This document shows positions 4,538 to 24,174 of a stretch of 64,000 nucleotides of DNA, piece after piece. The notes beneath the pieces were generated by a model. It made no database searches, had not been told where the DNA came from, and was given only the letters and a program-made list of their open reading frames with translations. The position numbers and the translations under genes were made by a program. Source of the stretch: Malania oleifera (Eukaryota; Streptophyta; Magnoliopsida; Santalales; Ximeniaceae); assembly GCF_029873635.1 (NCBI RefSeq), contig NC_080423.1, positions 106,997,988-107,061,987 of the forward strand, given 5' to 3'. Within the stretch, counting starts at the first letter, position 1, and each line of letters starts with the position of its first letter.

Positions 4538-6600
4538 TGTAACGACTTGCTTATCTTATCATATATTAAAACATAATTAATAAAATAGTCAACCCGAAAC
4601 CTGTGGGTAACAGGGACACCTGTCATACATAGCGAAACCTAGGCAGCAGTAAATGTAAAATCAGAAATTCATAACCATAAAATATAAATATCAGAGCCAA
4701 CTACAATCCACAGTGATACTGTATTCATATACAACCTCAAAATATCAAAACACATATAGGATCCCACAAAAATCTCCTGACCCTAGAACAAAACTTACCC
4801 TTCTAATGGGGTAACACTAGTAACTCAACGGCATTATTTCATGATACTGTCGGTCTTTCTAGGTTTCCTGAAAATTATTTAATATTCGAGGGTGAGACAC
4901 TTCTCAGTAAGGGAAAATACACTAAATACAACTGTGTGGCAACATGAATATTTAATGCTAATATAGATATACAATACATTTCATATACCTGAAAACATTC
5001 ATCAAAACATACTGAATAATCATATACTTTCATAATTTCTAATAATTCATACTAATCATGAAATATATTTTATAACTATTAATACTAAAATTCTACCCAA
5101 TATGTATAACTAGCTGATGTCATGTATTACCCCTCATGACAGGTTGTGCAACCCAAAGGCAGGACTCGACAATGGATGACCGACCACTGCCAAGTCAAAA
5201 ATGTTTGTAAGTATGATGTGTCTGCCACACCCTGGTCCGGACTATTAGGTGGACGTTTACAACTCTACACTGAAAGTCACATCAACTATCCATCTCTCAC
5301 CCCCTCGTGGGGCGGTTAGCACAAATATGAGCATAGTAATCTGATCTATATAGCTACGGTACGTTCTCTTGTAACTGAACAAAACTATCATCGGGGTTCT
5401 AATAATACATAATACATGATAATATACAGTTTATCGTAAAAAGGTTAGTAGCATTTTTTGTAATAATGTAAATACATACAGCCTTGCACCATTTACTTTT
5501 ATATTTGTGGCCTTGCACCAAAATCATACATGTACACGGCCTCGCGCCGGCTATCAATCACGACCTTGCGCCTAACATTCCATACATATCATTCTGATTA
5601 AGTAATCCATTTATCATGTATTTAAACATCATAATGTACTGCATTATTTCATAGTCTTTGAAAAACATGTTTTATTCATAAAATTGTCATATCATAATAC
5701 TTTTCATGAAAAATAACATTCATGCCACACAAAGCTGAGTAAATTCGTAAATTTCATTCTAAAATCACATTTCCTGGCATATCATACTAATATATATATA
5801 TATACATTTCAACATAATAGCAGTATTTTCACAAACATGCATTTTTACCAATCTCTTCATATATATTATACATGCTTCCTGAAGATAAATTTGCTTATAC
5901 ATAATAATAATATAATTTTCTTGGAAAATAACTATTTTAGTTTATTTCCTTACCTGACACTAAAAAAAAAACCCCCTAAAACACGCTCATCCTACACCCG
6001 CAGGGTTCCTCGTTCAACACCCTGAATTCAACAACTCCCAAAACTAAACTTCAGTATTTTCATGTGAATATCATTTCCTATAACTATGAAAAGACCAAAT
6101 TTGGCATAAAAAGTATTACCTCAACTCAGGGATGAATTTCAACTCGCTTCCACCAACGATCCACTTCGGCAGATTTGGAGAGAACTTTCCCAAGCGCGTT
6201 GTGATGGCTTCAGATCATTGAACCAGTAAATCCGGCCCGAGATCGTAGAGAGAAGGTAAGAGGGATGTATAGGAGAGAGAGAGAAAGGAGTGTTTGCGCA
6301 AGAATTCGGCCAAAAATGAGATTTTTACCCATTTATACACTGGCCTTCGTCGATGAGCCACATCACCTCGTCGACGAGGTCAAGAAGGAACTTTGTCAAC
6401 GAGTGCTCCCCTTCATCGATGAAATTTAGAGCTGTACAAAATGGCCTCTCGGGATTTTCTCGTCGACAAGACGCACCATCGTCGACGAGCCCTATATACA
6501 ACGTTCGCGTTCGTCGACGAAGCCTGCTGTCCCCCTTTTAAATTTCCTTTTCTTCCTTCCTTTTATTATTTAAATATTATAATTCCTCTAGGTCACTACA
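4538..6600 (-). mobile_element. Solo LTR, family 1, nested in the LARD
   Basis: The ends are TGTAACGAC and GGTCACTACA, flanked by the exact 5 bp duplication CATTT (4533-4537 and 6601-6605). Read on the minus strand it starts with a palindrome array (6346-6522), then TATAAAT (6331-6337), a purine/pyrimidine tract, a module conserved among copies, and a weak GGCCTCG-type array (5479-5572). It has no coding interior, so it is a single LTR left by recombination. The family is probably a Tekay-like chromovirus from the form of its ends, which is inference only. Confidence 0.85.
6346..6522. repeat. TCGTCGACGA palindrome array (7 sites)
   Basis: Seven sites match or nearly match TCGTCGACGA, usually flanked as TTC...GAA or CTC...GAG. 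Most variants, such as TCATCGATGA and TGTCAACGA, differ by C-to-T or G-to-A changes at CpG. The array ends next to the TATA-like box at 6331-6337 of the same LTR. Confidence 0.85.
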
Positions 6601-7507: not shown

Positions 7508-7595
7508 AAGCATGTAATGACCTGAAAAAAAATGGTATTTAAATAATAAAGAGAGATAGAAATGGAAAAAGAAATAGAAGGAGACAACAGACTTG

Positions 7596-7840
7596 CGTTC
7601 GTCGACGATATAGCACTTTGGGGATAATAACTGAAAATTTTTCCTTGGTCCTTGTCAATGAATACAGGGGATTTGTCGACAAGGGTATAGCAGGACCTCG
7701 TCGGCGAGGACAAGCTTCATCGACGAGAAGATACCGAGAGAGGATTATTGGGAAGTCTGAAATTTGCCGACAAGGGGGTAGGTTTGTCGACGAACTTTCT
7801 GCAGGACTCGTCGACGAGGTGATGTGGCTCGTCGTCGAAT
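7596..7840. repeat. TCGTCGACGA palindrome array (9 sites)
   Basis: Nine sites close to TCGTCGACGA occur in about 245 bp. Variants include TTGTCGACAA, TCATCGACGA and TCGTCGGCGA. The last site ends about 8 bp before the TATAAATA box at 7848, so the array occupies the upstream promoter part of the LTR. Confidence 0.87.
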
Positions 7841-7847
7841 CCCGCAA

Positions 7848-7855
7848 TATAAATA
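7848..7855 (+). promoter_or_regulatory. TATA box of solo LTR
   Basis: TATAAATA is followed within about 40 bp by a CT-rich stretch, as expected for a plant start site. The same box sits at the matching place in the copies at 12696, 10325 and 20571. Confidence 0.7.
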
Positions 7856-8379
7856 GTGTAAAACCTCGATTAAAAGCAAAAATTCAGCGTCGTGTTTCCC
7901 TCTTTCTCTCTCCTACTGTTCTCCTTCCAACTTTCTTCGATTTCGGTTCCGTCAATCACCGGATCGACGATCTGAGGCCACCATGACGCTCCTGGCGGAG
8001 TTCTCTTTAAGTCTGATGGGGCGGATCGTTTGTGGGATCGAATCGAATTTCTCCCCAAAATTAGGATAAGACCTTTTATTCAGTTTTTGACCTTATGACA
8101 GTTGTAGAAAATGATGTAGACTAAGAAATATTGATATTCTGTTCTGGAAAATGTGGTTTTCAGGGTGTGGAATAGGAAGCCCTGCGAGTGTAGGATCAGT
8201 ATACGATAGGGGCTTTTCAATAGTTTGGTAAGGGAAACATGCTATGCTAGGAAAACCTAGTATGATTTTAGTATGAAGTTTATGTTTTTACCGGATTATT
8301 ATTCAGAGCATAAATTTATGCAATTTATTATTGAGGTTAAAGTGTTTTAAATTATTGTGTGGCATGAGAGTAAGAATAC

Positions 8380-8600
8380 AGTATAAAAACATGTTTATAC
8401 AGTATTTTCAGAAATATGTTTTACAGAATATACAGACAGTAAAATGCGTTTACAGTATCTTTCAGAATACCATGATTTTACAATTTTACAGCACCATAAC
8501 AGGTAGATTTACAGTTATCTCAGAAAAATACAGTTGATGTAGTTACAGATTATTATAGCATCATGGTTTATACAATTATTACAGAATCATGGTAAAACAG
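8380..8600 (+). repeat. TACAG-rich degenerate array
   Basis: TTTACAG or ATACAG recurs about every 15-25 bp. The copy at 12696 has a similar array (13560-13870). The copies at 4538, 10325, 15821 and 20571 have a GGCCTCGTGCC array in the matching region instead, so this marks a subtype. Confidence 0.6.
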
Positions 8601-9468
8601 TTAGTTGTATATAGAATTGTATTATATAGTATCAGACCCTGATGGATCAGACAGCAGAGCATGGTACCGTAGCTACAGATATACAAATATTCAATTCAGA
8701 GTGCAACCACTATTCTCAAATAGTAAGTGGTATGAGGTCAATTGTGCCTAGTTGTGGACAAGCTCCCCATCATATATTGGTTGAGGAGGGCCGATCTGAC
8801 CGAGGAGTAGAGTGGTTTACCCTGGTCGGCCAGCCAGGATAGATCCAGCCTTCAGGACGCACAACTCTGTCATGAGGGGATAAATCATGACATACTGCCA
8901 TCCGGGGAAATATTCTCAGATATTATAGTATTATCAGATTTTTTGAAATAGTAATATTATTATGAAAAGTAATTTCATATAGTTTGACATATTAAATTAT
9001 GTAGTTAAAGGTTTTATAATATGTTATGTAGTATCAACATTTTCAGTTTTAGTTATTTGTTTTACTCTTATCTCGGATTAATCTTTGCAGATTCACATCT
9101 CAATTGCCACACACTAGTGATAGCATGTTTCGTCTTACTAAGCTTTGGCTCATCCCAGTGTTGAATTATTTTTCAGGTGAGCCAGTTGGGCGAGCGGAGC
9201 AGGCTCGCAAATAGAGGAGCTATTAGTTTGCCCTTTTTGAGGGTGAGTGCTTTGGGGTTCAATTTTGTTAACTCTGGTATTAGTAAGAGTAGTTTTTGAG
9301 AGTACAGTGAAATATGTAATATTTGTGGAATATTTAGACACTCTGGTATTGTATATATATAAGGTTGTGTTTCATGTTATTTGCTTTCCGCTGTGTAGGA
9401 AATTATTTTAATATAAAATATGAGAGAAGATTTTAGAATTTATTTTATAAGGAGGTCGTTACAAAGCA

Positions 9469-10319: not shown

Positions 10320-11221
10320 GGAGTTGTAACGACCTCAATTTCCTTAACATAAAATGTAATATAATGATAAAATGGTCAACCCGAACCCGTGGGTAACGGG
10401 GACACCTGTCAATCATAACGGAAACCTAAGCAACAACAAACATAAAATTGAAACCATCCATTCATCAAGTATAATACCAGAGTTAACTACAACATCATAA
10501 TACTGTACTTTTATACATTCTCATAAACATCAAAATAACTCTAAGGTCAAACACAAAATAATTCTGACCCTAGTACAAAAATCTTACCCTCATAACGGGG
10601 TAATATCCCTAACTCAACGATGGCCACGACCCACCGGTCACTCAGGGTCTCCTGAAAAATTAATGAATGTTGGGGGTGAAACACATCTCAGTAAGGGAAA
10701 ATAAACTAAATACAGTTGTGTGACGACATAAACATTTAATGCAATTATATATATACATACATTTCATATTTTCGTAAACATTCATCATATCATACTGAAT
10801 AATCGCATGCTTTCATATTTTCTAGTAAGTCGTATCGTACATAAAACATCGGTTATACTGATAATACTGAAAACATACCCAGGATGAATAGCTAGCTAAT
10901 GTCATGTATTGCCCCCCATGACAGGTTGTGCAGTTCGAAGGTGGGACCCGATAATGGCTGGCCGACCACTGCCGAATCAAATATGTCTGTAAGTACGATG
11001 AGCCGGCCACACCCTGGTCCAGACTGCCAGGTGGACGTCTACACTCTACTGAAAGCCACATCGACTATCCATCTCTTATCCCCTCGTGGGGTGGTTAGCA
11101 CTAATCTGAACATAGATATCTGATCTATATAGCTACGGTACCGAGCTCCTGAACTGAACTAAACTAACATTCAGGTTCTGATAACATATAGTACATGGTT
11201 ATATAGCATCTTTCATAATTA

Positions 11222-11378
11222 CTGCCTCGTGCCGAACATATCATAGTTACGGCCTCGTGCCAAACATATCATAATTACGGTCTCGTACCGAACATATCAT
11301 AATTACGGCCTCGCGCCGATCATATCATAATTATGGCCTCGTGCTGATCATATCATAATTACGGCTTCGCGCCGATAT
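11222..11378. repeat. GGCCTCGTGCCG tandem array (about 6 units of 27 bp)
   Basis: Units of about 27 bp carry TACGGCCTCGTGCC followed by a spacer like AACATATCATAAT. The core CGGCctcgcGCCG can form a short hairpin. Units differ mainly at CpG (CTCGCGCCG, CTCGTGCCA, CTCGTACCG). Confidence 0.8.
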
Positions 11379-12129
11379 AATACATAAATACGTCATTCTG
11401 AAAATAATCATTTTATCATGCATTTATAAGAATCATAATGTACTGTTTACCTTCATAACTTCTCAGATCATACTGCATTTACATCATTATCATATCAAAA
11501 TATTTTTCCACGTAAAATAATATTCATACCACACAGTTGTTGCATTAAAACTATTCATTGCATTTGGAAATCATGATTTCTGGCATCTCATACGTATATA
11601 CTCATTCCAACATACTAACAGTATTTTTCCAAAAGTGCATTAATTCCATAATATACTAATATCATACATATTTTTCGAAAATCAATTTACTCACAAATAA
11701 TAGTAATTTGCGTGAAAAGTAACTGCTTTAGCTTATTCCCTTACCTGACTACTGAGAAAAGCCCCTATAAACTCTAATCTCATATCCGTAGGGTTTCCTG
11801 ATCAATACCTTGAAACTGAAAACTTCTAGTATTAAACTTCAGTATTTCTACGTGTACATCATTTCCTATAACTGTCATAAGACCAAATTTGGCTTAAAAA
11901 TCCTTACCTCAACTCAGGGATGATTTCCAACTTGCTTTCATCAACGATCCGCTCCGACAGATTTGGAGAGAACTTCCTAGAAGCGTCGTGGTGACTTCGG
12001 AATGTTGAACCAGCGTAAATCTGGCCCAAAATCGATGAGAGAGAGAGAGAGGACCAAAGGGGGGAGAGAGAGAGCGAAGGTTGCTTAATAATGAAGTTAA
12101 AAATCCAGATTTTTCTATTTATAGAACTG

Positions 12130-12372
12130 AATTCGTTAACGAGCCACGTCATTCATTGACGAATCCTTCAATAATTTCGTCGACGAAATTCAATCCTTAT
12201 CGATGAAATTCAGTCAGCTCAAAAACTCTCTCGGTATTTCTTCGTCGACGAAATTTAGTCTTTGTCAACGAATTTTCTTAAGCCCTCGTTGACGAAGCCT
12301 TGATGATTCCTTTTGATTTTTTTTTTCCTTCCAAAATGCAATGTCATCGACGAACGCTTCGTGTTCGTCGAC
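12130..12372. repeat. TCGTCGACGA palindrome array (9 sites)
   Basis: Nine sites are seen, four of them intact or nearly so. The others include TCGTTAACGA, TCATTGACGA and TCGTTGACGA. The array lies next to TATAAATA (minus, 12116-12123). Confidence 0.87.
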
Positions 12373-12460
12373 AAAGTCGACTTCCTCATTCTATTACTGT
12401 TTCCATTTCCATTCCTCTTTATTATTTAAATACTATTTTTATTCGGGTTGTTACAGGAGT

Positions 12461-12690: not shown

Positions 12691-12775
12691 TATTTTGTAA
12701 CGACCCAAAAAATACTGAGATTTAAATATTAAAGAGAAAAAAAAATGGAAACATGAACAGAAGGAGACCGTAGAC

Positions 12776-13006
12776 TTCGTCAACGAACGCTCTGCGTTCA
12801 TCGACGACATCGCATTTTGGAGATAATAATAATAATAATTTCAAAGAAATTGTCAGAATTCGTCGACGAATACAGGGGTTCGTCGATGAAAAAATATCGA
12901 GAGATGGATATGGGATGCTCTGAATTTCGTCGACGAATACAGGGTTTCATCGATGAATTTAATGAAGGACTCATCGACGAGGTGACGTGTCTCGTCGACG
13001 AATCTA
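12776..13006. repeat. TCGTCGACGA palindrome array (8 sites)
   Basis: Eight sites occur in 230 bp, spaced 20-40 bp, three of them perfect TCGTCGACGA. Most of the rest differ at CpG positions. The array ends about 5 bp before the TATAAATA box at 13011. Confidence 0.88.
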
Positions 13007-13010
13007 GCAG

Positions 13011-13018
13011 TATAAATA
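13011..13018 (+). promoter_or_regulatory. TATA box of solo LTR
   Basis: TATAAATA lies directly downstream of the palindrome array and 30-40 bp upstream of a CT-rich stretch. It matches the box at 7848 in position and sequence. Confidence 0.7.
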
Positions 13019-13660
13019 GTGAAAAACCCAAATTTTTATCCATTTACAACGCTTGTCTCTCTCTCTCCTCTCTCTCTTTCTCTACGTCTCTCTCTCACTT
13101 CTCTCTTTGTTTCCGGGCCTGTTTCTTACCGGATCGAAGAACTGAGGCTACCACTACGCTCCTGGCGAAGTTCTCTACAAGTCTGCTAGAGCTGATCGTT
13201 GGAAAAGTCGATTTGGATTTCGTCTCAATCTCAGGGTAAGACATTTTATTCAGTATTTGTCTTTCCCTCAGTTATGAGAAATGTTGTAGGTAAGAAAATA
13301 CTGATATTTTGTTCTGGAAGATTGTGTTTTCAGGTTGTTGAGTTAGAAACCTTGCGGATATAGAGTTAGAATTTTATAGGGGCTTTTCAAAGTTAAGGTA
13401 AGGGAAATATGTTATGCTAGGAGTTTTCATAATGCTATTAGAGATTTCATGGACACATATTTATACCAGTTTATTATATAGTATTTATAGAATATGAATT
13501 TAAATGCTTGTGTGGCCTGAGTAGATTTTCATATGATAAATAATTTATATAGCTTTTATAATGTATCATACTATACTGAATGCCCAGAGATTATACAGAG
13601 AAATTTACATGCATATACAGCTTTTATACGAATGGTTTCATGATACAGATATATATATAG

Positions 13661-13693
<33 letters not shown>

Positions 13694-14775
13694 CATGTAT
13701 ACAGTTTTACTCAGATCAGTGTATATATTACAGTTTTATACAGAACAGTATGTACAGTGTTATAGCATGCCATGTTTTCCCATTACTATAACATACAGAG
13801 TATATAGACAGAGTATACAGATAGATATACAGATGTAGCATCAAGATGCTACAGATACAGTATACAGAGCTTACAGTATTTATAGTACATAAAGATAACG
13901 TTATGGTAATTTTGGGGAACATGATGAAAACAATAAAAGAGTATATATGTATATATGTATATAGTATCAGATCCATATGGAAAGATTACAGACAGATACA
14001 GTTACAGAGAACGGTATCGTTCCTATATACAGATAGAGTGCAACCACATATTTCAGATAATGTGTGTGTACCGTCTAACTGTGCTCGGAGTGGATGTAGC
14101 TCCCTAGTACGCTGGGTTGAGGGGGCCGGTTAGACGAGGTAGTAGCCAGTACCGTGCTTAGGAGTGGATGCAGTTTGGCTGGGTTGAGGTAGTGTAGAGT
14201 ATGATGACTTACCTGGAGGGCCGACCAGGTTAAGTCCCGCCAACGGGCCGCACAACCCTGTCATGAGGGGTCAAATCATAACGTACAAAGTTTCAGGGAT
14301 AAAGCACAATTATGTATATGTATACAGTTTTATAGTATATGAGAAGTATAGTATGGTATTATCAGTATGAAAAGTAGAAAATATAGACGATACAGTATAT
14401 TTTAAATTATGAAAGAAAGATATGCTTTATATATTATTCATTTCATTACAGTTCAATTACTATTTAAAAGTACTTTTAACTTAGTTGCCACACACTAGTA
14501 ATAGCATATTTCCACTTACTGAACGTCGACTCACCCTATTAATTTAACATTTTTCAGGTGAGCCAGTTAGGTGAACAGATCAAGCTCGCGGATAGAGAGA
14601 GTGTTGATTACCCTGGTTATAGGGTTAGTTTTTGACAGAGTTGTGTATATTTTTGGGTAGATGATTCTGGAGGGGTTAGTCTTGTATGGCTATGGTGAAT
14701 ATACACTGGATTTTGGTATTGTATGGTATATATATGTGAATGGTTGTATGATTTATGTTCCCGCTGCTTAGGTAT

Positions 14776-14812
<37 letters not shown>

Positions 14813-14841
14813 GGATAGAATTTTGAGGATGTTACATATTT

Positions 14842-14927
14842 TCAATTATGCACACTTTTAGGGGGAGCCTTTTTAGGTTGTACCCATTTTGCTCTAATGC
14901 GTTTATCATCATAAAAAATGGGGAGAT
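14842..14927 (+). mobile_element. LARD 3' interior end with polypurine tract
   Basis: The last interior segment ends in AAAAAATGGGGAGA just before the 3' LTR start TGTTGG at 14928. A purine run at this place is the usual plus-strand primer of LTR elements. Confidence 0.7.
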
Positions 14928-15224
14928 TGTTGGCTTTTTGAGTTCGATCCTTGGTTTTGATAATGACAAACCGCAAGTTTCTTATATGTGTTGTTAAGTG
15001 CATAAACAGGTACATTTCAGGTCACACATAAGATCAAGAGAACATGGAAGCCAATGCTGGTCTTAAAGCTCAAAATTGGTGTATTCTGTGAAGTCAAAGA
15101 GCAAAGGAGAAAAAGAAGACATGTTTTGTGTTGTAATTGCATTTGATTTTAATTTGGTTTGTAATAACTGCATTCATCCTGCATGATATGAATGTAAGCT
15201 CAGATGGAACTGTAAACATACCTT

Positions 15225-15712
15225 AAGTCAGTCGACCGACGTCAGGTTTTTTAGGATAAATTAAAATGCCTATAACTTAGATTGACCCTAAGTCCCTGCA
15301 CATAATTTTGCTAAAAATCATGACAAAATCGTAAGTGTGAAAGGGCTTCGGGTAACCGAAATGTGTGCGTTGAAAACGCCTCGATCGACCAAATGGTTAA
15401 CTAGTAAACAAGTTTGACTTGGTTTGAGCGACCAAACCAAATTGAACTAAGCGTCCCCGAGCGACTGAACCTTTATGCAGTCATTTTTCACCTTCCCTAG
15501 GCACCCGAACTTCACGTTCAAATCCACCTCAAGCAACCAAACATGTACGTTCGGTAAACTGAACTTTAGACCGGGCGACCGAACCGAAATCTTTTGAAAT
15601 CGTCTTCGGTTCAGCTACTCGAACATATTTTCAGGCACCCGAACCTCAAAAACTCGCTTTTTCTTTTGTGTCTATTCGGGCGACCGAACTTCAGGTTAGA
15701 CGCTCGAAACTC
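15225..15712 (+). repeat. CGACCGAAC degenerate array in LARD U3
   Basis: About a dozen short motifs such as GGGCGACCGAACC, GAGCGACTGAAC and AGGCACCCGAACC recur every 30-45 bp. The array ends about 100 bp upstream of the LTR TATA box. It resembles a regulatory motif array in position, though its motif is unrelated to that of the family-1 LTRs. Confidence 0.7.
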
Positions 15713-16693
15713 TCGAGTTGCTCATTTTTAACTGGGGTAATTAGGGTTAAAAATTAATTAAACTTTTTTAATAATTCCAAGCGTGTCCCCAATGGTAAAA
15801 AATTTCCCTGAGTCTATATATGTAACGTCCCTCAATTTCTTAATATAAAATGTTACATAATAGATCAAATGGTCAACCCGAACCTGTGGGTAACGGGGAC
15901 ACCTGTCAAGCACAGCGGAAAACCTAGCAGCAGTAAACATAAAATCTCAAACATCCAATCATAAAACATAATACCAGAGCTTTCTATAACATTATAAAAC
16001 TGTACTTCTATACATCCTCATATACATCAAAATATCTCTAGAGTCAGACACAAAATAACTCTGACCCTATTACAAAATCTTACCCTTTTCACGGGGTAAT
16101 CTCACTAGCTCAATGGTGGCCCTGACCCGTCGGTCTCTCAGGAGCTCCTGAAAAATTAATTAAGTTTGGGGGTGAGACACTTCTCAATAAGGGAAAATAA
16201 ACTAAATACAGCTGTGTGGCAACATGAATATTTAATGCAATTATACGTATACTGTACATTTCAGATTTCGTAAACGTTCATTATATCATACTGAATAATC
16301 ACATGCTTTCATATTTTCTAGTAAGTCATATCATACATAAATACTAAAAACAAATACCCAAGATGAATAGCTAGCTGGTGTCATGTATTACCCCTCATGA
16401 CGGGTTGTGCTGCTCGAAGGCGGGATCCAACAATGGATGGCCGACCACTGTTGAGTCAAATATGTCTATAAGTACGATGAGCCTGCCACACCCTGGTCCG
16501 GACTGTCAGGTGGACGTCCACACTCTACTGAAAGCCACATCGACTATCCATCTCCCATCTCCTCGTGGGATGGTTAGCACTAATCTGACGTAGATATCTG
16601 ATCTACAATATAGCTATGGTACCGAGCCCCTGAACTGAACTAAACTAACATTCTGGTTGTGATAACATATAATACATGATCATATATATAACA

Positions 16694-16800
16694 TCATTAC
16701 GGTCTCGTGCAGAAAATATAGTAATTACGGCCTCGTGCCGAAATCATGCATAAATACGGCCTCGTGCCGATAATATAAATACATGGCCTCGCGCCAAAAT
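16694..16800. repeat. GGCCTCGTGCCG array, short
   Basis: About four to five units with TACGGCCTCGTGCCG and short AT spacers occur in the solo LTR. Just downstream a segment of about 55 bp (16811-16860) is repeated almost exactly (16869-16918). Confidence 0.7.
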
Positions 16801-17859
16801 CGTTTCAGGTATATATATATTCTGAAAATAAATCATTTATCATATATTCGTCAAATTCATCACAATATATATTCTGAAAATAAATCATTTATCATATATT
16901 CGTCAAATTCATCACAACATAACTCATCTTTTCATAATACCTGAAATCATGGTTTGTTTGTAAAATCTTTCACATCATAATATATTTCACATAAAATAAT
17001 ATTCATGCCACACATATGCTGTTAAAAGTCATACTTCATATTCTAAAATCGTGATTTTTCAGCATCTCATACATACATATATATTTTAATCATCATAACA
17101 GTATTTTCCCAATCGCACCTTTCATTCATAATAAACAAATAGCATATGCTTTTCTGAAAATAAATTTACTCATAATTAATAATAATTTGCATGGAAAATA
17201 ACTGCTTTAGTTTATTCCCTTACCTGACTACTGAGAAATTCATTAGGACCCAAATCTTACGCCCTTGGCGCCCGAAATTTAACTACTGCAATTTATATTT
17301 TCCTCAGATTAATTAATCTATTTCTCCAAAATAATACTCACCTAGCCTTCCCTAGGCTCCATATATCTCAAATTAATATTTAAACTATTATTTAACATCT
17401 CCACTTAATTTTTTAAATTTTTCCTGCGGGTCTCAAAATTACACCCACGGTGTTCACCCGAGCCCTAAATTTCAGAAATCCTACTTCAGTCTCAGATGCT
17501 CAATATTTTAGCATTTCTAAATTAATGCTAATTAATTAAAGTAAACCCCTTAATAACCCCCGTACCCCAAATTTGGGATTTTTGCCCGACACCCCCACGA
17601 GAATTCCGTTCCGCTAGACTTGTAGAGAATCATCCCTAAATTATCGTGGTGGTGTCCGTTCGTCGATTGGGCTTATATTTTGCAAGAAATTAAAGAAAAA
17701 TGAGAAAATGGTTTACCCCAGGGAATATACCTACGCCGCTCCTACCACCGATCCGCTCTGGTAGAAATGACGGTAGCGGCGAATAGAGTCCAGTGGTATC
17801 TTCGGATTTTCGATCGGGCGAAAATCATCACAAAATCAAGGAGAGAGGGAGAGAGAATG

Positions 17860-17862
<3 letters not shown>

Positions 17863-17929
<67 letters not shown>
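17863..17929. repeat. (AG)n microsatellite
   Basis: A pure AG run of about 65 bp lies inside the solo LTR. Purine runs sit at the corresponding place, just downstream of the promoter, in several other copies, so this is an expanded conserved tract. Confidence 0.9.
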
Positions 17930-17932
<3 letters not shown>

Positions 17933-20900
17933 CAGTGCTGCGCGTGAAAAGAAAAAAAAAGAAAAGAAATGAAGAAGAAGATTGGAAGAGGGGGGGGGGC
18001 TATGCCAATTTCACTTCAAGAATCTACCCGAAGCTTTAAGCTTCAGGTAGTTTAATAATAATAATAATAATAATATATTTTATTAATAAATATAAAAATT
18101 AATTTTAATTAATTTTTTTTTATAAATCCGTTTAATTAAGTAATTATTTAATTAATTATTATTATTATTATTAATTTATTTTATTTTATTTTTTGAATCA
18201 CTTTACTAATCTTCTATAACCCTTTTTGGGGTTTTTACAACATATACCCCTTTCATAACTCAAATTAACAACTTTGATTAACCCATTTTCTCTCTAATTT
18301 TTATCCTAATCAAAGTTTCCCCAAAACATGTTTTTATTGCAAAATCTTTTATGGGGTAAATTTTATACTCTCCCAACACTCTTTGTTACTTTTCGAAAAT
18401 TATTTGAAAGAGTGTATTCATTTTAATTGGGCTTTTATTTTATCAAAGTGCATTTGCTCTCACCTAAACTCATATTTTTAGAAAATCACTTTGAGGGTAA
18501 ATTTTGGAGTTTCTCCCGTTTATTTGGTTGATAAATACTTTTGGAGAAATTTTTTTATAGAATTTGAATCTTTATGTGATTATCATATATATCTTGTTCA
18601 TAGATGGAAAATATTATTTTTAGTAAAACACCCTTACTCCCTAAGCATATTTCATATCATTCAAATGTGCATATTCAAGCTTTATTGTGTACACTTCTGC
18701 TTATATTTTTCAGAAGCATTTTCATTTACAAAATTTTTTTTAATGTACTGGTTGGATTCAACCCATTAATTGAATTGGAAAGTCTCAACCTCATAAATGA
18801 GACTGATTCGATTTAGCCCGAAAATTGAACTGGGCAATCTTAACCCCGTAAGTAAGACTAGTTCGGGTCAACCTAGTAATTGAGCTGGGTTTTCCTCGCC
18901 CCGTAAGAAGAGGATGTAAATGGCTTTTGCTCCGCCCGGTTAAGTGAGCAGGTTTAATAGAATACTCAGGGGGTATCCCCAAGGTGGGGACGTAGGCTGA
19001 TTTGAGCGAATCTCGATAACAAATCTTGTGTTTCTCTCTCCTTATCTCATTTAAATCACTGCACTTTAAATTCAGTATGTGTATGCTTATTTATTTTCTG
19101 TTATATTTAGTTGCATGCACACATTTACTTTGAATGAGATACGCATGTATGCATGAATCGAATAACTTAATTTTTTTATATACACACGTTTAATATTTAA
19201 TGAGATATGATATGCAGCAAATTAGCGAAACATTTAAATTAACCGAAATTTTTTTAAATCTCCAATTCACCCCTCTCTTGGGATCACACCATTTCCAACA
19301 AACAGTGGGGGGGGGGGGAAGGTACTGCTTTAGTTGTTCAAAGGCTTTACTGTAACGCCCCGAACCCCTAAACCCGGGTCTGGTGCGTTAGACCTTGTAT
19401 TATCCTAATAATCCATAATCTATAATATACATACGCAACTGAAAACATAACCATAATCTCCATAAACCTAGTTCTATAATACCAACATTCCATAATACCA
19501 GAGTTTTCTATTTCCTATTTATAAATCCATAAAAACCATCCATCACCAGCATTTCCATAAATACATACTCCATAACATTCCAGTATGTTTACAAACATTC
19601 TTTTCTCCACAAACTTAAAACATAATGACATAAAACATAAACATTTCCATTCCCAAAATATTATCAACATATACCCTATTTCTATAGTCCTCAAAAACGC
19701 TAAATACCCTCGAGCTCTCTAGGCTCGACCTTGAGGATGTCCTGAAAAAGAAACATTCATATTCGGGTGAGACACATCTCAGTAAGGGAAGAAATATCCA
19801 TATTAAAACAGCGTGTGGCTAACATGAGGTATATAGATAATATTTTAAAATACATTTGCAAATCATTACATAGCATTGAAATCATTTTCTAAACCTACAC
19901 AAACACATGCAAATATTTAACCTATGAGATTACCCAATGATAGGGGTGATTACCCGCCCCTACAAGTAGCACCCCTCTGTTCTGATATTTAGGTAACCCC
20001 AAGGTCACAACTAAAGCATACCAGGGCACTCACCTTACTCAGTATGCCCTCAAGTGCTAGTTTAATCTCGTACTCACACATTCAACAATAGTTTACTGGC
20101 AAAAGCCCTAAGGATAGGAAAATCTACCCGCCCATATAAGTAGGTTCTCTCTGCCTTAGTACGTTATGCAGCTACTACCACATCTGAAGCTACTAGTGCC
20201 CTCGCCTTTCTCAACAAGCCCTCAAGCGAAGAGTTTGCCCAATCATAACATGTTCTACGTACATACATACTTCTAATATTATAATACATCATTCCTTTCT
20301 GTCATTATACATTCATGCACATTCATTCACGTTCATAACTTAACTTTGCATTTCGTTTCACTTTAAGTGACTCTTTCCCATTTACATCGTTCACATTTGT
20401 CATTTCATTTCATTGCCATTTCATCGTCATTTCATTGCATAACATTTCATTTCATTACTTCGTACTACAACTGGTCTTTAGTCATTATTAGTTAGTCTAT
20501 AACTCCTTTTTCCTATCATCAGTTAGTCTACACAAAAGTGTGCTAGATCTGCTAACATGGTTGTCTTTCATGTAACATCCCTCAATTTATATACATAAAT
20601 ATCACATAATAAATGAAATGGTCAACCCGAGCCCGTGGGTAACAAGGATACCTGTTATACACAGGGGAAAACCTAGCAGCAGTAAACATAAAAATCCATA
20701 CATCCATCCATAAAACATAATACCAGAGCTTTCTATTAACATCAATATACTGTTCATATGTACAATCTCCAAAAAGTCAAAATAATACTAGGACTATGTA
20801 ACAAAATCTCCTAGTCCTAGCTCAGGGCTTACCCCTATAGTAGGAAAGCACCAATCACTCAACGGCGGCCCTGACCCGCCGGTCTCTATGGGTTTCCTAA

Positions 20901-21503
20901 AAAATATATTAATGTTGGGGGTGAGACACTTCTCAGTAAGGGAGAGTAAACTAAATACAGCTGTGTGCCAACATGAACATTTAAGATGCTTATACATATA
21001 CCATACATTTCATAGCTCTGGAAATAATCATAATATCATACTGGATAATCATGTATTTTCATATTCGTTAATAAATCATAACATACATAAACATCTGTTA
21101 TAACTCGTAATAACATACATAAAACATCTGTTGTAACTGTAGTACTAAAAATATACACCTATGATGAATAGCTAGCTAATGTCATGTATTACCCCCCATG
21201 ACGGGTTATGCAGCCCGAAGGCGGGACCCGACAATGGCTGGCTGACCACTGCCGAATCAAATATGTCTATAAGTACGATGGGCTCGCCACACCCTGGTCC
21301 AGACTGTCAGGTGGACGTCCACACTCTACTGAAAGCCACATCGACTATCCATCTCCCATCCCCTCGTGAAATGGTTAGCACTAATATGGCCTCGTGCCAA
21401 AATCTGAACTACCCATAGCTACAGTACCGAGCTCCTGGTGTGAACTAAACTAACATCCTGGTTGTGATAACATATAATAAATTATCATACATAATATCAT
21501 TAC

Positions 21504-21700
21504 GACCTCGTGCCGAAAACATAGATACGGCCTCGCGCCGAAATCATATGTATGGCCTCGTGCCAAAATCATAGTAAATATGGCCTCGCGCCAAAAATAT
21601 CAATACGGCCTCGTGCCGATAACATAAATACATGGCCTCGTGCCAAAATCATATAAATATGGCCTCGTGCCGATAACATAAGTATGGCCTCGCGCCAAAT
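21504..21700. repeat. GGCCTCGTGCCG array (about 8 units)
   Basis: Units of 20-28 bp alternate TACGGCCTCGTGCCG or ATGGCCTCGTGCCA with short spacers like AAATCATA. It is the longest of the four arrays of this type here. Confidence 0.8.
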
Positions 21701-22467
21701 ACATTTCAGGTATTTACATTTGAAAATAACTCATTTATCATGTATTCGTCAACTCAATATAACATAACCCATCTTTCCAAAATACCTGAAATTATATTTT
21801 ACTCGTAAAAGCATTCATATCATATCTCATTTTAAGTAAAATAATATTCATGCCACATATGCTTTATTAAAAGTCATACTTCATATTTTAAAATCATGAT
21901 TTTCTGACATCTCATATATACATATACTTTTAAGCATCATAGCAGTATTTTCCCAATCATACATTTCATTCATAATAAACGAATATATCATATGTTTTTC
22001 TGAAAATAAATTTACTCATAATCAATAATAGTTTGCATGGAAAAGAATTGCCTTAGTTTACTCCCTTACTTGGCTACTGAGAAAGCCCCTACTGAGAAAG
22101 CCCCCAAATATCCTAGGCTAACCCCTGTATGAGTTCCTGATCAACACCCTGAAACTCAAAACTCCCAGTATTAAACATCAGTATTTTCATGCGTACGTCA
22201 ATTTCTATAACTACCATGAAGTCTAATTTGGCTTAAAATGCCTTACCTCAACTAAGGGATGATTTTCAACTCCGTTTTCCCGACGATCCGCTCCGGCAAA
22301 CTTTGAGGGAACTTCACCAGGAGCGTCGTGGTAGCCTCAGATCTTCGATCCAGCGTAAAACCAGCCCAAAATTGAAGAGAGAGAGTGAGAGGGCTGAAGA
22401 GGAGAGAGAGATGCTTCTTAAAAAAATGAGATATTTCCTGGATTTCCATATTTATAAAGCAGCGAGA

Positions 22468-22707
22468 TTCGTCGACGAGCCCGACCTTCATCGACGAGTC
22501 CTTCACAAATTTCGTCGACGAGACCCTGTATTCGTTGACGAAATTCAGGCTGCCTCAGAACCCCTCTCAATATTTTCTCGTCGACGAAGCAATGTGTTCG
22601 TCGACGAAATTCTTAAAGACTTTGTCGACGAAACCCTGTGTTCGTCGACTAAATCCTGCTGAACCCCTATTTTAGCCCTTCCAAAATTCAATGTCGTCGA
22701 CGAGGTC
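22468..22707. repeat. TCGTCGACGA palindrome array (9 sites)
   Basis: Nine sites are present, five with the perfect TCGTCGACGA core, making it the best preserved array. It sits about 12 bp from TATAAATA (minus strand, 22449-22456). Confidence 0.88.
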
Positions 22708-23550
22708 GATGACTTCCTTCTATTTCCGATCTCTATTTCCCTATCTTTATTATTTAAATACCATTCTAAATTCGGGTCGTTACATTTCAGCTGTCTTACA
22801 TTTACATGGTTGCATTTAACATATACAAGCAACATTGTCCATATCATATTTTATTCATAAGCTTTACTTACTTAACTTGCATCTCGTATATCTAACATAT
22901 ATTTGCACAGAATCTCGTGCCACACAATTTTTGAAGTAAAATTTCATATACATTTCTTACAAAATAAGCCAACCCATAATTAACATTTATATACTGAAAA
23001 TACATTTAATTCCTTAGAAAAATACTTTCTCACTTTCATTCAATTATTTTCACATATACATAGCTATATAAGCATTCCTAAGCTCATAAGACATAAATTT
23101 CATGACTGGTATTTTAAACCCACATATAAACATATATACATAAATAGCATATAATTCATTTTAATTCATAAAAAACCTGATTTAATATATAAATTTCCCC
23201 CTTACCTGACTTCAAACTATGCCTGTGAGATCCTCGAACCGATACCCACAATGTTCACTTGGACGCTGAATCCAAAAATCCTAACTTAATCAAAATAAAT
23301 TCCAATTAACTCAGATCTTAAGAAAAATACCTATTTACTATTTCTTAGGCTCCATATAACATTATTCGTTAAGGAAAACCCAAAATAACTCACTTACCTT
23401 GATTTTGGGATGTTTCCCAAACCTTACAATCCAACGATCAGCTCATACATCCTTGAAGAGAATGATCCCACAAACCTCCTGACGGTTTTGAATTGTCAAA
23501 CTAGGTCAAAATCGGCCCGAAATCGAAGAGAGAAGGTTGGAGCTTTGTTT

Positions 23551-23681: not shown

Positions 23682-23872
23682 TTCACCGACGAGACACGTT
23701 GATTTGTCAACGAGGCACTGTAGAGTCTTTGTCGAAGAGATGATACCTTCGTCAACGAAATTCAGGGTTTCCAAAATTCTCTCTCGGGATTTCTTCGTTG
23801 ACGAGAAACAGCCTTCGTCGACGAGCTTAGAAGGACATTCGTCGACGAATACAGGACATTCGTCGATGAGGC
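23682..23872. repeat. TCGTCGACGA palindrome array in family-2 LTR (8 sites)
   Basis: Eight sites are present, including TCGTCGACGA, TCGTCAACGA, TCGTTGACGA and TCACCGACGA. The array ends about 9 bp from TATGAATA (minus, 23666-23673). Family 2 differs from family 1 downstream but keeps this layout. Confidence 0.83.
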
Positions 23873-24174
23873 CTGCTTTTCCTTCTAATTTCTTTCCTTT
23901 TTCGTTCATTATCCATTAATCCATTTCATTTATTAGATTTTCTAATTATTTAAATTCCCGGGTCATTACACTTACCTTGTTCTTCTCCCAATTAAAATCC
24001 TCCATTTTTCCGCAATGCCTTGAAGAAGGGTAAGCTCATATCTCCCGAACAGGAGATAAACCTACTGAGTGAGGCAATTCTTTCGGTTAAGATTTGAATC
24101 TCCTTCTTGGTTCGAGGAGCCTTCATCTCTAGCAGTGCTCGTATCTTGTCAAGGTTAGCTTCTATTCCTCTGTG

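Follow-up and report, generated by a model that had tools for sequence, protein, structure and literature searches.

Results

Numerous LTRs of the host genome carry, upstream of their TATA box, an array of about eight 10-bp palindromic sites (TCGTCGACGA) in a regular spacing and a fixed orientation, and the same sites and spacing, together with a shared centre element, occur in Ty3-type and in Ty1/copia LTRs. We propose, with a probability of roughly 0.6, that this array is a cis-regulatory module of the U3 region used by both Ty3 and Ty1 elements, probably the binding array of a dimeric host factor.

Arrays in the window

The window, the whole 64-kb stretch of DNA analysed, contains 17 exact copies of TCGTCGACGA, as against none in 100 shuffles. 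When sites are scored at no more than two mismatches from TCGTCGACGA, six arrays are recognised, holding 7, 7, 8, 8, 9 and 8 sites in coordinate order over spans of 174-242 bp (Table 1). The last site stands 9, 9, 9, 9 and 12 bp before a TATA box on the sense strand in the first five, and this order holds in copies of both orientations. Each of these five arrays, out of the six array-bearing copies, lies inside a solo LTR, 1.95-2.2 kb long, that has TG...CA ends and is flanked by a 5-bp target-site duplication; the TATA box sits 264-336 bp into the LTR. The end of the LTR at 12696 was chosen among six downstream places where TATTT follows CA, being selected for a preceding GTTACA and for the LTR length that results; that of the LTR at 20571 is one of four possible matches, picked likewise for its GTTACA and the LTR length.

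The initial annotation had assigned arrays of 7-9 sites, each ending 5-15 bp from a TATA-like box on the sense strand, to six LTRs starting at 4538, 7513, 10325, 12696, 19351 and 20571. Five of these LTRs bear the array; no site at up to two mismatches exists from 13002 to 22468, hence none at the LTR start 19351, and the sixth array is instead that at 23683-23869. The count of 7-9 sites stands at up to two mismatches, exact sites numbering only 2-5 per array. The distance to the TATA box is 9-12 bp in five arrays, and in the sixth (23683-23869) neither a TATA box was recognised nor a second LTR edge found.

Three further observations concern the same window. An LTR-like sequence start, TGTAACGCCCCGAACCC, is present at 19351 with no palindrome array nearby. 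The segment 15821-17238 shows 77-80% likeness to the array LTRs in their downstream part and stops before the array region, so that it is seemingly a truncated LTR. In the part of these LTRs downstream of the promoter there is a second tandem array, at 11213-11375, 16696-16778 and 21501-21704, with a single unit at 5537; its units measure 25-29 bp and are built around CGGCCTCGTGCCG, which is an inverted repeat in its own right.

Table 1. Array-bearing LTRs of the window and their promoter features.
Feature	Position	Strand	Remarks
Solo LTR with the array in question	12696..14836	+	TGTAACGACC start, GTTACA end, TATTT on both sides
Palindrome array, 8 sites at up to 2 mismatches, 3 exact	12777..13001	+	
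Centre element (AAAAATATCGAGAG), separating the two groups of sites	12890..12903	+	from sequence and motif profile
ACGTGTC word between the last two sites	12985..12991	+	
TATAAATA box, 9 bp past the last site	13011..13018	+	
Solo LTR, 2063 bp	4538..6600	-	CATTT target duplication
Palindrome array, 7 sites, 3 exact	6347..6520	-	
TATA box (TATAAATG), 9 bp past the array in sense	6330..6337	-	
Solo LTR	7513..9463	+	AAGCA target duplication
Palindrome array, 7 sites, 2 exact	7599..7838	+	
TATAAATA box	7848..7855	+	
Solo LTR, 2131 bp	10325..12455	-	GGAGT target duplication
Palindrome array, 8 sites, 2 exact	12133..12374	-	
TATAAATA box	12116..12123	-	
Solo LTR, 2214 bp	20571..22784	-	TTTCA target duplication
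Palindrome array, 9 sites, 5 exact	22469..22703	-	
TATAAATA box, 12 bp past the array	22449..22456	-	
Sixth palindrome array, 8 sites, 2 exact	23683..23869	-	one LTR edge, at 23970

Abundance and order relative to TATA across the genome

Exact TCGTCGACGA occurs 132,361 times in the 1.494-Gb host genome, and the same word written backwards 1,383 times. It lies within 30 bp upstream of TATAAATA at 17,084 places (9,085 + 7,999; control 3) and within 30 bp downstream at 86 (48 + 38; control 4), which bears out the claim that the U3 includes the array as a constant component, its order and orientation set relative to TATA. In 6,897 of the 17,084 (3,551 + 3,346; control 0) the gap is exactly 9 bp, and gaps of 10-19 bp add up to 1,771 (886 + 885; control 2). 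Among the 86 places in the reverse order, about 20 (counted by eye) repeat TATAAATAGGGGATTTCGTCGACGA and close variants, e.g. C1:131792458, C2:15100059, C12:85136239 and C13:41046163, as though in some small family the sites came shortly after a TATA-like word.

Sampling of twenty 10-kb stretches, placed at round coordinates, gave 13 arrays of at least three sites, in 8 of the stretches; these 13 arrays give a coarse estimate of about 65 arrays per Mb, on the order of 100,000 per genome. Copies devoid of the array were searched for in the 200 kb of arbitrary genome that these twenty stretches make up, with the regions downstream of TATA (R/U5) of five window LTRs as queries. Six segments were found, one of them skipped at a stretch edge, and the remaining five promoter-proximal LTR segments all carry 5-9 sites; more diverged LTRs would escape such a search.

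Template, spacers and centre element

The array plan was derived from 95 arrays of at least four sites: 6 from the window, 12 from the twenty stretches, 38 from 40 pieces around exact sites of contig C1 and 39 from 40 TATA-anchored pieces. The C1 pieces come from clusters among the first 100 exact places, none taken beyond C1:951 kb, and L036 and L037, being single sites, were kept out. Five arrays were assigned by hand to copia and two (L014 and L052) to neither type; the other 88 of the 95 were labelled Ty3-type by default, nothing having marked them as anything else.

Six to nine sites at up to two mismatches are present in 79 of the 95 arrays. Adjacent steps in the 88 Ty3-type-labelled arrays are mostly 19-21 bp (267 times) or 24-25 bp (142 times), with 44-48 bp (74 times), 50-56 bp (35 times) and 26-43 bp (5 times) as the rarer lengths. 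The resulting template, read away from TATA, consists of eight sites at steps of 21, 24, 20, about 46-51, 20, 24 and 21 bp, that is, two quartets of sites around a second element, about GRARATACCGAGAG. This centre element stands directly after a site, between the quartets, and its seed is matched at 8 or more of 14 places in 80 of the 88 arrays; a site followed by the exact centre occurs 2,482 times in the genome (control 0).

The letters of the spacers are in part looser than their lengths. Among 65 template-fitting arrays, which were picked by site windows and thereby favour a kept spacer length, the P3-P4 spacer measures 10 bp within 1 bp in 63 and carries 0.36 bits per column, as compared with 1.2-1.6 bits for the palindromes and 1.48 bits for the first 14 bp of the centre. 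The P1-P2 and P2-P3 spacers, at 1.08 and 0.94 bits per column, are less free. Agreement with the modal length to 1 bp is also less frequent in the centre (37/65), P5-P6 (45/65) and P7-P8 (46/65). A common helical phase of the sites was considered and rejected, since steps of 20-21 and 24-25 bp cannot share one face.

Site variation and RNA folding

Variation was measured in 818 sites at up to three mismatches, a limit that biases the differences down. At the six CpG places 852 of 4,908 letters differ from the motif, 686 of the 852 being C-to-T or G-to-A, and at the four non-CpG places 116 of 3,272 differ. Each exact site holds three CpGs, and this concentration in CpG transitions is the pattern that decay of methylated CpG leaves, suggesting that the CpGs of present copies decay as methylated DNA does. 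Covariation of mirror positions, considered as a sign of dimer binding, was dropped because none was found in the genomic copies (OR 1.20, p 0.46; OR 1.00, p 1); the copies thus give no sign of their own that the dyad symmetry matters, as is expected of dead copies.

RNA folding was predicted for the first 200 nt of every third array. Against shuffled sequences, the array cores give a median z of -3.03, with 75% below -2 (32 of the 95 arrays), and 16 3' flanks a median z of +0.41, with none below -2.

Promoter classes of the Ty3-type LTRs

Pieces of Ty3 elements (RVT_1, RNaseH, Integrase_H2C2, Tf2-1 SH3) lie beside the array LTRs L028, L071, L072, L073 and L075; the Ty3-type LTRs are otherwise known from junctions with a purine run before the LTR. 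These elements may be Tekay-like; a chromodomain was looked for in the Ty3 element pieces tried and gave no match.

Two main distances to TATA were seen in 50 arrays that lie outside the window and were not TATA-anchored. With strict TATA words, 20 have the box at 8-13 bp (class A) and 15 at 19-22 bp (class B/C), the remainder comprising 5 copia arrays and 10 with no TATA box at 8-22 bp. Looser words give 25 class A, 16 class B/C, 5 copia and 4 without a box; this looser assignment accepted whichever site fitted first and put two or more arrays in the wrong class, among them one of the window and one of L010.

The classes carry different accompanying words. Of 54 class A arrays, 29 have ACGTG[GT]C in the P2-P1 spacer, which separates the last two sites, and between array and TATA GTCAA or TTGAC is found in 19 of 26 class B/C arrays and CACGTG in 2 of 26. 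We assume that these correspond to the ABRE, W-box and G-box, respectively, and that ACGTGTC at 12985..12991 is an ABRE-like word. A further promoter type, with GGCCACGTGG, a G-box word, between the last palindrome and TATA and a 19-bp gap, was seen at C1:29789898, C1:44222362 and other places.

The position of the first site was also measured from the LTR start. Where this start was recognised in class A (34 of 57), the first site lies at 79-88 in 21 cases, nine of these at exactly 82, and anywhere between 30 and 107 in the others. Among the class B/C arrays (15 of 26 recognised) it lies at 80-88 in six, at 71-75 in six and elsewhere in three.

The array in Ty1/copia LTRs

Copia LTRs make up five of the 40 C1 pieces (L061, L062, L046, L033 and L063). 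L061 and L062 are the LTR pair of one element of a family here called K2, with matches to gag_2 (PF14223, 2e-28) and RVT_2 (PF07727, 4e-39); the K2 anatomy is seen in the LTRs L069 and L070, which are 87-90% identical, with gag and RT between them and the primer-site word TTGGTATCAAAGC after the 5' LTR. L046, from a second copia family, has a copia RNase H tail (by eye) that is 80% like that of L062 over 274 bases. L033 and L063 form the K1 family (87% alike over 672 bases); about 1 kb from L033 there is a match to GAG-pre-integrase (PF13976, 2e-17). The K1 LTR has a TGTTGG-like start and a C run near its end, and looks like a Sirevirus LTR.

These LTRs follow the Ty3-type plan. The sites of L062 lie at 0, 20, 45, 65, 112, 134, 159 and 180 from the last site, the modal class A register being 0, 21, 45, 65, 111, 130, 155 and 176; L063 equals L062 within 1 bp and has two sites more, and L046 and L033 match the template with gaps. 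L046 also has a second centre-like word, GATACCAAGAG, between its site groups, leading to a 71-bp step. A centre profile made from Ty3-type arrays only scores all five copia centres above nearly all shuffles (fraction 0-0.0002, with a factor of two for the array strand having been picked by the centre), and the K2 centre compared with the Ty3-type one reaches z 11-12. A blastn comparison of a K2 LTR with the window LTR 20571-22784 aligns 193 bp in register at 68% (E 8e-16, small search), much of the alignment being made up by the palindromes.

A search with the R/U5 of K2 gave 3,719 first-look candidates, of which the best 40 matched at 87-100%. Five new K2 copies on five contigs, taken from these best 40 of 3,719, all have 7-8 sites and the same type of centre. 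Three of them equal the L062 register within 1 bp, L127 has one step of 30 instead of 25 bp, and L129 is without one unit. The first site lies at LTR position 82 in both LTRs of the K2 pair and at 81 and 82 in two of the further copies, the LTR start not being recognised in the other three; in L046 it lies at 94.

The recognised TATA box is 91, 91 and 97 bp downstream of the array in L061, L062 and L063. None was recognised in a TATA scan of L033 and L046, the latter having a TATA-like GTAAATA about 114 bp downstream. The statement that the array lies directly upstream of TATA therefore applies to Ty3-type LTRs (about 9-13 or 19-22 bp) and fails for copia LTRs (91-97 bp in three of five). Because the distance differs by class (9-13, 19-22 and 91-97 bp), strict core-promoter phasing is not general. 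The array module is common to Ty3-type LTRs and at least two Ty1/copia LTR groups of this genome.

Discussion

Proposed role and competing explanations

We propose that about eight 10-bp dyad sites (TCGTCGACGA), in two groups of four around about GRARATACCGAGAG, would together provide a platform on which a dimeric DNA-binding protein of the host assembles with a partner, placed in Ty3-type LTRs at a set distance 5' of TATA. The element would thereby gain transcription in any condition to which the host factor reacts, and the sharing between Ty3 and Ty1/copia could reflect an old exchange of U3 sequence or a common demand. That a protein binds here, that it is a dimer and that it activates are points we infer from the layout of the sites. 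The GTCGAC core fits a CBF/DREB-type RYCGAC site on both strands, which is a lead only for the candidate factor. A cis-regulatory binding array is preferred because the words are kept, the spacer lengths are mostly kept while the spacer letters are looser, and the order relative to TATA is fixed, all of which a multi-protein platform on DNA needs and hairpins or silencing alone do not. The array could instead be a hotspot of small RNAs and silencing. Self-complementary sites can anneal with one another in RNA, any one with any other, so that a transcript running through the 3' LTR would form hairpins that may feed small RNAs and RNA-directed methylation; the array would then be a target of the host, besides any service it renders the element. 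The stable predicted fold of the array cores (median z -3.03, +0.41 for the flanks), the CpG-decay spectrum and the precedent of maize Sirevirus palindromes, which attract small RNAs according to PMC10760457 and PMC5311732, are all consistent with it. However, repeated palindromes fold stably in any case, and this model predicts neither the favoured 9-bp TATA distance nor spacers of kept length (10 and 14/15 bp) nor a shared non-palindromic centre, so we regard it as unlikely to be the main explanation. The two roles can coexist, as PMC10760457 suggests for maize Copia elements. Least probable, and in our opinion quite unlikely, is that one ancestral LTR held the array by chance and spread it through its own success, the sites now being idle. 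Class A spacers are indeed related in register (rank 1/24 in the right-index test; identity 0.56 vs 0.47 shuffled), so that descent explains much of the resemblance among arrays of one class. When class A is compared with class B/C, this likeness is nearly gone (rank 16/24; 0.49 vs 0.45) but sites, steps and centre persist, whereas CpG-rich sites free of selection should presumably have decayed first, and the same plan in Ty1/copia LTRs would need a further event.

The sharing across classes suggests a control switch that was passed between them or kept by the same demand. Tentatively, and at somewhat less than even odds, we favour an exchange of the U3 module, sited at a set distance from the LTR start, between Ty3 and Ty1/copia elements within this lineage, with its geometry selected, so that about 100,000 LTRs may be tied to one host factor. 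Independent origin of the Ty1 and Ty3-type arrays, through convergence towards one host factor and without any transfer of DNA, appears rather unlikely, though it agrees with several comparisons. K2 and class A are 80% identical in the palindromes and 80% in the first 14 bp of the centre, but their short spacers are not significantly related in register (rank 5/24; K2 against B/C, 16/24), the identity being 0.50 vs 0.465 shuffled. Spacer homology between the superfamilies, indicated by two copia arrays (mean z 2.3), was dropped when six K2 copies gave this rank of 5/24. Copia and Ty3-type LTRs show only weak likeness in the segment ahead of the array (z 0.5-4.4; 3.3-3.5), the first site of L046 lies at 94, and near-identical boxes occur in otherwise unlike Sireviruses of distant hosts, as described in PMC2829016. 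Convergence would, however, have had much to reach: the same 10-bp word, nearly the same eight-site register and a non-palindromic centre on the same strand, along with a first site at 81-82 in the four measured K2 LTRs, as in class A. Since the likeness of A and B/C spacers is lost as well, the absence of likeness between K2 and class A could also have followed an exchange, and the weak likeness before the array together with the LTR position of the first site makes us lean towards it.

If our proposal is correct, one short site and its geometry would govern the expression of much of the retrotransposon load of this genome, under a control that spans two anciently diverged superfamilies. It would become directly testable whether there is a shared control point and whether LTR promoters move between superfamilies, and spacers of kept length and loose sequence would provide a natural experiment on the building of multi-site DNA-protein arrays. 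If exchange did occur, the array would be a transferable promoter cassette.

Comparison with known systems

Searches of the open-access literature for the motif, for such arrays in Ty3 LTRs or for an array shared by Ty1 and Ty3 elements found no paper among the matches listed, and those for palindromic LTR promoters and LTR exchange between superfamilies found, among the matches listed, nothing pertinent beyond the papers cited here.

Tobacco Tnt1 and similar U3 arrays consist of short symmetric or repeated activator boxes in the LTR. The present array is set apart from the Tnt1 boxes by description, its motif, copy number and two-quartet plan being its own. Such repeated boxes are mentioned in PMC2829016 and PMC10760457. 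In maize Sirevirus LTRs, a 2016 study cited in PMC10760457 and PMC5311732 is summarised there as finding palindromes clustered in the cis-region with strong predicted RNA structure, and one Copia palindrome is, according to PMC10760457, also the commonest in structured regions of Helitrons. The arrays described here resemble those palindromes in their clustering in the LTR cis-region and in their strong predicted RNA structure, and differ in having another motif and in lying mainly in Ty3-type LTRs.

The closest counterpart is the repeated-motif (RM) boxes of Sireviruses (Bousios et al. 2010, PMC2829016). In that paper, RM boxes are short motifs of dyad symmetry, eight or more to an element, which cluster in the LTR's upper half, before TATA, and are found in elements that otherwise differ. 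They are further described there as Sirevirus-specific, absent from the classic copia elements studied and mostly of a CGG-CCG signature, which the listed Sirevirus Tnd-1 lacks; they form a CpG island, and extra copies precede the envelope gene. Like RM boxes, the motif found here is palindromic, is present in at least eight copies per element (counting two LTRs each), is clustered in the LTR and precedes TATA closely, by 9-13 or 19-22 bp, in 35 of 50 arrays with strict and 41 of 50 with looser words, and the Vitis Sirevirus motif CGGTCGACCG given in that paper shares the core GTCGAC with it. Unlike RM boxes, most arrays here are carried by Ty3-type LTRs and not by Ty1/copia Sireviruses, the signature of TCGTCGACGA is TCG-CGA in place of CGG-CCG, and one motif in one register is common to the Ty3-type and copia LTRs of one genome. 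The kind of array is thus already known from the RM boxes, while its occurrence mainly in Ty3-type LTRs and its sharing across superfamilies look new within the open-access literature searched.
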